Shown: in pieces, positions 12,533-47,504 of the stretch
Numbering within the stretch: the first letter of the stretch is position 1
How the letters are laid out: each line of letters begins with the position of its first letter
NCBI GenBank assembly: GCA_015233895.1
Contig: JADFXG010000013.1
Coordinates: 1-64,000 of the forward strand
Length of the DNA: 64,000 nucleotides
Direction: 5' to 3'
DNA from: Nitrospirota bacterium
Lineage (GTDB): Bacteria > Nitrospirota > Thermodesulfovibrionia > Thermodesulfovibrionales > Magnetobacteriaceae
Translations under genes and position numbers: made by a program
The notes under the pieces: generated by a model
Told to the model about the DNA's origin: nothing
Database searches by the model: none
Seen by the model: the letters and a program-made list of their open reading frames with translations, nothing else

Positions 12533-13223
12533 AGGGATTTTAAGAGAGGGCTCTGCCCTCCCTTAAACCCACCCGCACGGGGAATGATTCCCCGTGACCC
12601 CCGGTTTTTTGTCAACGATTTTTCATTGTGTGTAGGGGCAGCCCCCTGTGGCTGCCCGGATAAAAGAATTTTTTAACCGGCGTTCCGCCGCTTAGGGGAG
12701 GTGAGCCTTGCCCGCAAATTAAAGATTTGCTCTATCATTATACTGCCTCTTTGGGGGCTACTTGGTATTATTCTTTAAAAATTTCGTGTTTTTTCGTGCC
12801 TTTCGTGGTTAAAATTCTTTTTCTCAATACTCAGCGTTGGTGCAATCTTGTAGATTGCACCACAGTGTTTGTACCTTTGGTTTCAGATTTGAAGTAAAAG
12901 GAGTAACATTTCGGAGCAGTCTGCAAGACTGCTCCAACGTGGATTCATTTTACCTGCGCAATTTATACAGAATATCGTTTAAAGAAATAATACTTATAAA
13001 TCTCTTAATCTGTTCGTCTGTTTTGAGGGCGGAGCTCTCATTGAAACTTTTTAATTGGCGGAACGCCAATTGAAAAATTCTCTACCAACAAGGATAACGA
13101 AAAAGCATTAGACTAAGCCTATCACACGTTGTTAACAAACCGGGGGTCAAGGGGAATCATTCCCCTTCTTAACTTACTTCATCCACGGTTGTCTTTTTTT
13201 TAGAAGTAAGATTAAACTGGATA
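12533..13223. repeat. Gene-free region with a cluster of short palindromes
   Basis: About 690 bases with no credible gene. At least eight three-to-six-base-loop palindromes occur: 12546-12560, 12576-12596, 12636-12657, 12678-12690, 12838-12862, 12913-12935, 13053-13071 and 13149-13167. Several form inverted pairs that share flanks: 12576 with 13149 (core GGGGAATGATTCCCC plus flank ACCCCCGGTTT), 12838 with 12913 (flank CGTTGG), and 12678 with 13053 (core GGCGGAACGCC). Stem differences between partners are compensatory. A stretch rich in TTTCGTG (about 12782-12810) looks like a dispersed non-coding repeat. Confidence 0.8.
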
Positions 13224-43997: not shown

Positions 43998-45715
43998 TTA
44001 TTTTCGGCCATCAAGTGCATAAATAGTTATCTTTTCTGTTTTACCCTTAACAACTACAGAACCTAAAGGACGTATTAAGTAGTCCCCTGTGGATTTAATC
44101 AGGGTAGCGCTGCTTACGATAATTTTTGCTTTAAACTCTTCATTTTTTGTAAGCGTCTCAAGTCTTGAAGCAACGTTGACACCGTCCCCTATTACTGTGT
44201 AGTTAAGCCTGGACTTAGAGCCCATGTTTCCTGCTAATACAATGTCTGTGTTTATCCCGATACCTATGTCAAGGGGCAAAAAGCCCATCTGTTCAATTTC
44301 TTTGTTTAAACTGCTCAGAGCCTCCACCATGTCTAAAGCTGAGTTAAGGGCCCTGTCGGTATCGTCGGGGTTGCCGATAGGAGCACCATACAGAGCCATG
44401 ATGGCATCTCCTATGTATTTATCTATGACACCGCCATATTTTTCTATTATAGCACTCATCTCTGTTATATACATGTTTAAGAGACGAAGGGTTTCCTTAG
44501 GCGTAAGGTTTTCGCTTATTGTCGTAAAATTTCTTATATCAGAAAACAATATGGTTACCTCACGTTCCTCACCGCCGAGTTCGACCTGCTTTTTAAGCAG
44601 TTCATGGGCAATAGGGGCAGAAACAACCTTTCCGAGTAAGTCGGCCACCAGTTCCTTTTCCTCAAGCCCTATGCTCATGCTATTAAAGGCCTCGGCAAGT
44701 TCACCTATTTCGTCCCTGTGCCGGATTTCCACCCGATGGGTGTAGATACCTTTAGCGATTTTTCTTACACCTTCAACAAGAATACTTACCGGCCTGGTAA
44801 CAGTTCTGGCTATGCGTAACGATGCAAGGATGGAAAGAAGCAAGGTAAGAGCAAAAAACACGTATAGAGCCCTTCTTAACCTGTAAAATGGTTTGAGGAC
44901 ATCGTTTAGTGAGCGCTGAAGAGCTGTTATTATTGAGTAACCATTAGCATTATGCAAAGTAGTTATTGCCGTAACATATTTGTCGCCTCCATAGTTTACC
45001 TCCAGTGTCTTTACTTTTTTGATGTCAACGTTAGAAATAGTTTGAAGCAGGGTTTGAGAGTCTTGTTTAGTTAAAGTTGATGCGATAACAGGCTGGTTCT
45101 CTTTCCGGCTCGTATTTATAATGGTTACATCCGCTAAGATAAAATTTTTTAGCTCAGAAAGCAGAGCATCATCTATTACAAATCCTGTACATAACCAGTC
45201 GATAGGGTCTGGGGCAAGAAGAGGCACTATAATAATCTGGTACGTTTTTCCGTCCATTGTGACAATTGCCGATGCCTCACCATGGTTTTCGGCCTCAGTT
45301 AACGCCTCATTCAACGTATCAGGCACCCGCGTATTATCTTTTACAGTTTCCGAGTGCATCGTACTTGCCAAAACAGTGTGATCCATGGATATGAGCATCA
45401 CCAGATGAGAATTTATGCGGATTTTCAAGTTTTCAAGTACGGATACGATTGTTTCGTGGTCAGAGGTTGTAATAGCGTTTTTAAAAGCAAAATCCATTGA
45501 AAGAAGATGGGTCATCTGTCCAAGCTGCCGGGCTCTTCTGAGCATAAGTTCAATAAACACACGTCCACCTATGGAGAGGTTTTCATAAATCTGGGTTTTA
45601 GCATTATCTATCGTAACAGTATCTATAAAAACTATAGTAACAAGCTGAACAAAGCCAAGGAGGGTTAAAATAAAGAAAAGAATTCTTGAGTTAAAACGGC
45701 GAAAAAAAAAGTCAT
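43998..45715 (-). CDS. Membrane-bound class III nucleotidyl cyclase, out of frame at a T9 run
   Basis: The uninterrupted coding part is 43998-45560 (520 codons from GTG 45560): a periplasmic sensor, a membrane helix (VFFALTLLLSILASLRIA), HAMP (about residues 245-300) and a class III cyclase with VTILFSDIRNFTTIS, IDKYIGDAIMALYG (metal Asp residues and Lys) and NYTVIGDGVNVASRLE. The frame is open back to 45716 and encodes the missing first helix (SRILFFILTLLGFVQLVTIVF) but without a start. ATG 45715 is one base away and is separated from it by T9 (45702-45710). A tenth T would join them. Cyclase product is probably cAMP. Confidence 0.8.
45702..45710 (-). repeat. T9 homopolymer at the cyclase start
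   Basis: On the minus strand, ATG AC is followed by nine T and then CGCC. With nine T the ATG frame stops after 16 codons. With ten T it runs into the full-length cyclase, including its N-terminal membrane helix. Confidence 0.65.
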
Positions 45716-45716
45716 A

Positions 45717-46418
45717 TTAGTGATAAAGTCCCACCCCACCTAATACGGGGGCACGCCTTGAGCTCCATTGATGTGTAAGGTGCAGTGTAAAGTTAACACT
45801 GGTGTCTTTGTTATTAACTACGGAGACCTTCATTGTTTGTCCCGGAGACTTAGGATCCAGGTTTGGATGCCAAATGGCTACATCATATTGGCCATCCGGC
45901 AAATTATTTATGGTCATTTTACCTTGAGAATCGCTTCTTGCAAAATATGGTGTTTCCAGGACATAGATATATGCTTTCATCCAGTCGTGAATATTACATC
46001 CAATAACTACCACACCAGGTTTGTCAAAAAGCACTTTGTTTTCGGCTTTAACACCAGGGGGATACAAGGGAATTTCAAATGTTTTTGCAGGAGAAAAGGA
46101 GTAAATGTGATGGCGGATTTTATCATTATTGGGAAATGACACAGTAGTGCCAACCTGTATAGGTGTTACATAGTCTATAAATTCTTTGTCAACCTGGTCA
46201 ATAATAACAGTTACCTGAGGTTTTGACTCTTTAACAGTAAAAGAAGTGGGGGTTGCTGTTACAACTGCAAATTCTACTGGTTTGCCCTCAGTATCGGTAA
46301 CAAGCGCTTTCAGATTTGCGCCATAACAGTTGGATACTAAAACTACAATAAAGAAAAAACTAATGGTTATCTCAGTAAAAATCATAAAATAGTTATTTTT
46401 TTTCATACAATTTCTCAT
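45717..46418 (-). CDS. Exported cupredoxin-type protein (methylamine-utilization-like)
   Basis: A 233-residue protein with a signal peptide (about residues 13-33). An N-terminal carboxypeptidase-regulatory-like region (LKALVTDTEGKPVEFAVVTATP) leads into a plastocyanin-like fold with FPNNDKIRHHIYSFSPAKTFEIPL and VVVIGCNIHDWMKAYIYV, which supply the His, Cys and His/Met copper ligands, followed by a second beta region (KMTINNLPDGQYDVAIWHPN). It may carry electrons or sense copper in the periplasm. It is between an outer-membrane protein and a cyclase whose ATG lies one base after its stop, so the three genes form a unit. Confidence 0.85.
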   Translation of the reverse strand: MRNCMKKNNYFMIFTEITISFFFIVVLVSNCYGANLKALVTDTEGKPVEFAVVTATPTSFTVKESKPQVTVIIDQVDKEFIDYVTPIQVGTTVSFPNNDKIRHHIYSFSPAKTFEIPLYPPGVKAENKVLFDKPGVVVIGCNIHDWMKAYIYVLETPYFARSDSQGKMTINNLPDGQYDVAIWHPNLDPKSPGQTMKVSVVNNKDTSVNFTLHLTHQWSSRRAPVLGGVGLYH

Positions 46419-46436
46419 TGTAATATACCTCTTCTT

Positions 46437-47354
46437 TTAAAAACTATACATAATAGCAAACTTTGCAATGTTTTCATAATAATTCCACCCACTGGAACGT
46501 CCTAAAATACGTGAATAATCGGTATTTAAAGATAAATGTCCGCTCAGGGCATAGCTGGCTCCAAGTAAAAGCTGATGGGAGAATCCGTGCATCTTGTATG
46601 TCCACAAGGTTTCCCCATAAGCATCATCAAGAATGTTTGCCTTAGAAAACCTTTTAATAGCCCTGATATACTCCGCACCTGCTGAGGAGAGGAAATCACC
46701 AGTATTGTAAAAATAACCCGGAGTGATAACTAAACGGGGAGCAACAAGAAAGTTTGCTATAAGTGAAATCCTCTGGTTGTTGAGATCAAAAACGCGGCCT
46801 GAGGCACCCAGTTCAGCAGCATTAAGGTCTTTGCCCCTTCTTGCGGTAAACAGATACCCTGCCTGCAAGTCTATCCGCTCACCAAAGTATTTTCCGGCAT
46901 TAATACCGGCTGTATATATCATGCTGTCTCTGTTACTGTCACTTACGCTTAGATATGAGGCTGAGCCCTTCAGGGAAATCCAGGGAATTTCGTGGCCTAA
47001 ACCTAGTTTTTGTATTAAAACAAATGAAGGCCCTGCAACAACGCTATCCAACTTATGATATCTGCCAAATATCTCACTGGATATATCGGACGTAAGCCTT
47101 AATCTTGTATATTCACCAAGCTGATAATATCTGCCAAGGGAAATAGCTGGTGCTGTCACGAAATCTTCTCTTTTCTCATCAGGAATATATATATAATTTA
47201 TATTATCCCTGTACTGGGTAGACAGGCTGGCATCTATTATCCATTCCGCCCATTCAGCATGCGAGGTGGATGGAAACATAATTATCAATAAAAAGAGGGA
47301 TATACAAATGTTTAGAAGCCGGAATTTCCTAAAATTCTTCAAGGTAAACACCAT
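46437..47354 (-). CDS. Outer-membrane beta-barrel protein of unknown function
   Basis: A 305-residue protein with a signal peptide ending near residue 32 (TSHAEWAEW) and alternating-hydrophobicity strands throughout. It ends in Phe (KFAIMYSF), as barrel proteins do. No plug or peptidoglycan domain is seen. It starts the minus-strand set barrel - cupredoxin - cyclase, with 18 bases to the next gene. The same trio occurs in other Gram-negative bacteria as I recall, but its function is not known. Confidence 0.75.
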   Translation of the reverse strand: MVFTLKNFRKFRLLNICISLFLLIIMFPSTSHAEWAEWIIDASLSTQYRDNINYIYIPDEKREDFVTAPAISLGRYYQLGEYTRLRLTSDISSEIFGRYHKLDSVVAGPSFVLIQKLGLGHEIPWISLKGSASYLSVSDSNRDSMIYTAGINAGKYFGERIDLQAGYLFTARRGKDLNAAELGASGRVFDLNNQRISLIANFLVAPRLVITPGYFYNTGDFLSSAGAEYIRAIKRFSKANILDDAYGETLWTYKMHGFSHQLLLGASYALSGHLSLNTDYSRILGRSSGWNYYENIAKFAIMYSF

Positions 47355-47504
47355 CTTAGTTACCTCCGTATATAACTTATTTTGAAAAAGCCTAAAAAAG
47401 TGAACTCAGATTGTATGAAGTAGTGTACTCTAAGCTGGCCTCTGAAGTCAACATTTTATTTGTCAAGCTAAATGATATTCAACAGCATGAGAGAGTAAAT
47501 TCAT

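Follow-up and report, generated by a model that had tools for sequence, protein, structure and literature searches.

A conserved T9 run at the start of a class III cyclase gene in Nitrospirota: a candidate site of programmed transcriptional slippage

Described slippage sites and the cyclase locus

The threshold for transcriptional slippage in bacteria has been placed at runs of nine bases (PMC1088944). In mxiE of Shigella flexneri, slippage on a run of nine T in the sense strand adds one non-templated U, which restores the frame and yields a longer protein, the run joining two overlapping ORFs inside the regulator gene (PMC1088944, PMC6260861). In dnaX of Thermus thermophilus, a cellular gene, slippage on an A9 run near the 3′ end is functional, the slipped mRNA giving the shorter product and the unslipped one the full product (PMC1088944). 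An A11 run near the 3′ end of Citrobacter rodentium tssM1, not widely shared, restores an otherwise broken gene with about 20% frameshifting, and both products occur (PMC4256274). Six of the seven conserved slippage cases in PMC1088944 are insertion sequences.

The cyclase locus described here resembles mxiE in its nine sense-strand T and in the longer protein that one extra U would give, dnaX in having a nine-base run in a cellular gene, and tssM1 in that slippage would restore a gene otherwise broken. It differs from mxiE in the position of the run, two codons into the gene, which would limit the product of unslipped mRNA to a 16-residue peptide, and in that slippage is here predicted from the sequence. 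Unlike the runs of dnaX and tssM1, it lies at the 5′ end and, in contrast to that of tssM1, it is conserved across species. With homopolymer phase variation at gene starts it shares a mononucleotide run next to a start codon, but its length does not vary between species and always leaves the gene in the non-coding phase.

The locus lies in the window (the whole 64,000-nucleotide stretch analysed) of G000, the query genome in a sample of 19 genomes of the family. Its features, all on the minus strand, are:

46437–47354, minus: beta-barrel protein, first gene of a three-gene cluster shared across genera (OMP_b-brl match just under the cut-off)
45717–46418, minus: upstream gene with a carboxypeptidase-regulatory-like domain (ORF and domain match); the cyclase ATG follows its stop almost directly
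45713–45715, minus: ATG, proposed start, one base past the upstream stop and one base off the cyclase frame (from the sequence and the N-termini of relatives)
45702–45710, minus: T9 run (U9 in the mRNA), proposed slippage site, identical in five species of two genera
45665–45715, minus: 16-codon ORF from the unslipped U9 mRNA, ending at a shared position in the five T9 species
43998–45716, minus: cyclase open frame with dCache_3 sensor, HAMP and class III nucleotide cyclase domains (ORF and domain matches)
45624–45680, minus: first transmembrane helix, residues 13–31, reachable only from ATG 45715 with a frame change (pN/pS 0.18, hydropathy 2.7, model helix 8–73)
45558–45560, minus: internal GTG, rejected as start
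44940–45584, minus: dCache_3 sensor domain, residues 45–259 (E 3.7e-14)
44661–44816, minus: HAMP domain, residues 301–352 (E 2e-14)
44013–44564, minus: adenylate/guanylate cyclase catalytic domain, residues 385–568 (E 3.3e-28)

On the minus strand the upstream stop TAA (45719–45717) is followed by T (45716), ATG (45715–45713), ACT, the T9 run (45710–45702) and CGC. Re-reading of the strand from 45719 to 43998 bore out the coordinates of a preliminary description and its ATG off by one base, as well as its statement that the cyclase frame, open from 45716 to 43998, lacks a start ahead of GTG 45560: there is no ATG, GTG or TTG in that frame between 45716 and this GTG. Unshifted, ATG 45715 opens only the 16-codon ORF (45715–45665); with one T added to T9, it is joined to the intact dCache–HAMP–class III cyclase frame. 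The observation of an off-frame ATG followed by T9 is therefore correct, and a run of about nine or more A/T stands at the frame transition (45702–45710), as at slippage sites of the mxiE and dnaX kind.

The Guanylate_cyc, HAMP and dCache_3 matches all exceed the curated cut-off, identifying a class III cyclase with dCache and HAMP domains. Residues D393, D437, K433, D511, N514 and R518 are invariant in the alignment (A2) and comprise what we take to be the metal-binding Asp pair and other conserved residues of the catalytic domain. The upstream gene product is probably periplasmic. The three-gene cluster (window 44006–47361) has ~76–83% DNA identity to genomes of another genus, with flanks on the same contigs that mostly do not align, as if the cluster had moved as a unit; a search of plasmid and viral collections found no relatives.

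The start region and its conservation

The 47 codons between T9 and GTG 45560 show a pN/pS of 0.18 in the cyclase frame versus 0.97 and 2.7 in the other frames, and thus evolve as protein in the cyclase frame, under purifying selection. The upstream membrane helix that the preliminary description had read from the letters is accordingly real, conserved coding sequence. That description had also allowed for relatives starting at the internal GTG without an upstream helix; the relatives show the reverse, the helix being conserved and the GTG not (it is GTC in G013, locus L007). In an AlphaFold2 model (mean pLDDT 83.6) the GTG codon (residue 53) falls midway along a single helix spanning residues 8–73, and the dCache_3 match starts ahead of this codon. 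We reject GTG 45560 as the cyclase start, since it is unconserved and lies mid-helix.

Relatives in Gammaproteobacteria and elsewhere that do carry a start codon begin at the residue given by ATG 45715 after the shift, and the shifted product MTFFFRRFNSRIL aligns without gaps with MSFRFRRFQTRLL of L051, which has an ordinary start codon. The cyclase most likely starts at ATG 45715, and the earlier proposal that one extra T completes the N-terminus is supported, as an extra base in the RNA.

Among the 19 family genomes, TATGACTTTTTTTTTCG (TATGACT9CG) is letter-identical in five species of two genera (G000, G003, G011, G016 and G013), in each immediately behind the upstream stop (TAA or TGA). 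The five amount to about four lineages because G000 and G003 are closely related, too closely for run conservation between them to be informative as a baseline. The five are related uncultured Nitrospirota, probably magnetotactic. Their cyclase proteins are 75–96% identical, with 9–41% of the codons for shared residues differing, and nowhere else in the gene is there a stretch of fully identical codons as long as the five of the site. By the rate at other invariant columns, codon identity of the five-codon site alone is modestly unlikely (p ~0.01–0.04). Of the five more distant species, four have an interrupted version of a T8 run that lies ~690 bases upstream within the three-gene cluster. 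The run at the frame transition is thus conserved across five species, as in the mxiE and dnaX kind of site. ATGACTTTTTTTTTC has a single occurrence in each T9 species; a sixth genome also contains it once, at an unrelated position. The ATGACT9C match in G009 does not lie at the ortholog; the gene downstream of it resembles an asparagine-synthetase/amidotransferase N-terminus and begins in another frame.

We surveyed runs in 464 kb of G000 (the window plus G000:C1:1–400000). The frequency of T9 in the window is unremarkable (5 matches versus 5.9 expected), and the cyclase T9 is the only A/T run of eight or more in the 464 kb at which a one-base change restores a long ORF lacking a start. A second apparent case in the window, T8 at 13194, proved false, the ATG of that ABC ATPase coming after the run. 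The identical TATGACTTTTTTTTTCG in five species and the sole start-restoring run in 464 kb put the site beyond chance, though T9 itself is not rare. Many other A9/T9 runs of G000 sit in long intact ORFs, indicating that run lengths in this assembly are not systematically wrong. At L153 (G000:C3 near 3129) an A9 overlaps an ATGA gene junction, where a one-base deletion would merge two ORFs, lengthening the frame from 492 to 642 codons; this is perhaps only translational coupling.

Not all close relatives keep the site. G015 and G005 have T8 and T7, lack the ATG and carry in the cyclase frame a CTG overlapping the upstream TGA; G006 has a TTG overlapping TGA and G008 an ATG. Since G015 is sister to the T9-bearing G016 with strong support, T9 requires at least two changes on the tree, implying either one or more losses or repeated gains. 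The close group probably inherited T9 from its ancestor, and the run and its ATG would both have been displaced once another start came into frame. Weak starts recur in the family (TTG in L008, apparent CTG in L004 and L006), which suggests to us that low cyclase dosage is favoured. In L004 and L006 the apparent CTG overlaps the upstream TGA and HH replaces RR after the T run; the two are not sisters in the tree, and local recombination may perhaps account for the shared HH. In the more distant orthologs L010, L043 (G012) and L011 (G004) we found no ATG, GTG, TTG or CTG near the conserved N-terminus (..GTATATCCTTAAAT.. and ..GTATATCCGTAG..); these may use an AUA or AUC start or another recoding.

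Recoding at T9 and competing explanations

The account we consider probable is a conserved programmed recoding at the cyclase start by realignment on U9, most likely transcriptional slippage. Translation would begin at ATG 45715, probably through reinitiation by ribosomes that end the upstream gene one base before. The templated U9 mRNA would yield only the 16-residue peptide. RNA polymerase would slip on T9 in a fraction of transcripts; in those with one extra U (or with lengths equal modulo 3) the ATG would come into the cyclase frame, and the full MTFFFRRFNSR...-dCache-HAMP-cyclase would be made. Enzyme levels would thereby stay at a small, constant share of what the operon produces, and the site looks like built-in dosage control, not like a DNA switch between on and off or a mistake in sequencing. 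We infer slippage itself, its transcriptional nature, its rate and its role in dosage; that two close relatives (G015 and G005) do without the site counts against programmed recoding.

The composition of coding sequence in G000 bears on this. Compared with 100 synonymous shuffles of 357 ORFs, coding A runs of nine or more number 3 versus 13.9 expected and T runs 4 versus 17.1, with none of the 100 shuffles as low, an about fourfold depletion, while A/T 7-mers exceed the shuffles. In stretches from relatives T runs of nine or more are also depleted (0 versus 6.5). Depletion at nine with an excess of 7-mers seems to mark a sharp slippage threshold in G000, and by the filter of PMC1088944 the organism, on these 464 kb, avoids runs of nine. 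Baranov and colleagues attribute such depletion to the avoidance of transcriptional slippage on runs of nine (PMC1088944); avoidance of long runs could also reflect slippage in DNA replication.

The main rival is programmed −1 ribosomal frameshifting, an unlikely but serious alternative, in which ribosomes from the ATG would slip back one base on U_UUU_UUC four or five codons in, the codons UUU UUC re-pairing as UUU UUU. The heptamer, of the X_XXY_YYZ form, stands in the right frame relative to ATG 45715 in all five T9 species, and the shift would yield the same protein as an extra U. The Phe tRNA is able to re-pair in the −1 frame. However, frameshifting of this kind would leave the first T free to vary, as the third position of an ACN codon, yet the whole run of nine is retained; nor is in-frame T_TTT_TTC depleted in G000 coding sequence (31 versus 22.5 expected). 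There is too little space behind the start for an internal SD, and no significant or conserved structure downstream; indeed, we found no conserved stimulatory RNA structure around U9 on either side, and simple slippage on T9 needs none. In E. coli, moreover, slippage at U_UUU_UUA and U_UUU_UUU is much weaker than at A_AAA_AAG (PMC5009743). Given the lack of conserved RNA structure, these weak slip sites and the pattern of run avoidance, we favour, rather than consider proven, transcriptional slippage over ribosomal frameshifting.

Slipped-strand DNA phase variation, the mechanism put forward in the preliminary description, would leave the gene off at T9 and on at T10 in a minority of cells. 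A T9 run at a start codon has the classic geometry, one T switching the gene. Nevertheless, a phase-variable tract should vary between close relatives, and this one is T9 (always the ‘off’ length) and never T10 in each of the five species retaining the ATG, despite their large synonymous divergence; the relatives that depart from T9 have also lost the ATG and carry an in-frame CTG. The proposal is therefore unsupported, and we regard such a switch as improbable.

Equally improbable is that no frame change occurs, the cyclase being translated from a non-standard start in its own frame or by read-through of the upstream stop, which shares that frame in the T9 species. The weak starts of L008, L004 and L006 and the lack of a recognisable one in L010, L011 and L043 speak for this. 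However, no near-cognate codon is common to the five (codon 12 is ATT, ATT, CTA, ATT and CTC), read-through would fuse the helix, whose RR-rich beginning is expected in the cytoplasm, to a protein that is probably periplasmic, the frame relation of upstream stop and cyclase differs in G015 and G005, and neither variant explains the kept ATG and T9.

An assembly or sequencing error masking a true T10 is very unlikely, as is a decaying gene: homopolymers are error-prone and the family genomes mostly drafts, but the same T9 stands in five separate assemblies, many other A9/T9 runs of G000 lie in long intact ORFs, and the pN/pS of 0.18 in the affected stretch argues against decay.

Meaning for the cyclase and its family

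Although the class of mechanism is known, the cyclase instance is new. A limited literature search found no second-messenger enzyme under conserved slippage, no slippage site at a start codon, and nothing relevant on cyclases with regard to either slippage or phase-variable homopolymers; few ordinary chromosomal genes of bacteria are documented to carry conserved programmed slippage sites. If transcriptional slippage does operate here, automatic annotation of the cyclase, with an internal GTG start or as a broken gene, would be wrong, and start-proximal homopolymers in AT-rich genomes would deserve a systematic look. This 60-base stretch would also make a cheap test case in a reporter fusion. 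A further and rather doubtful possibility is that the site is a regulated gate, with NTP pools, elongation rate or ribosome coupling on the upstream gene setting the cyclase level via slippage, which would provide control of expression level, or cell-to-cell heterogeneity in second messenger, without any change in the DNA.
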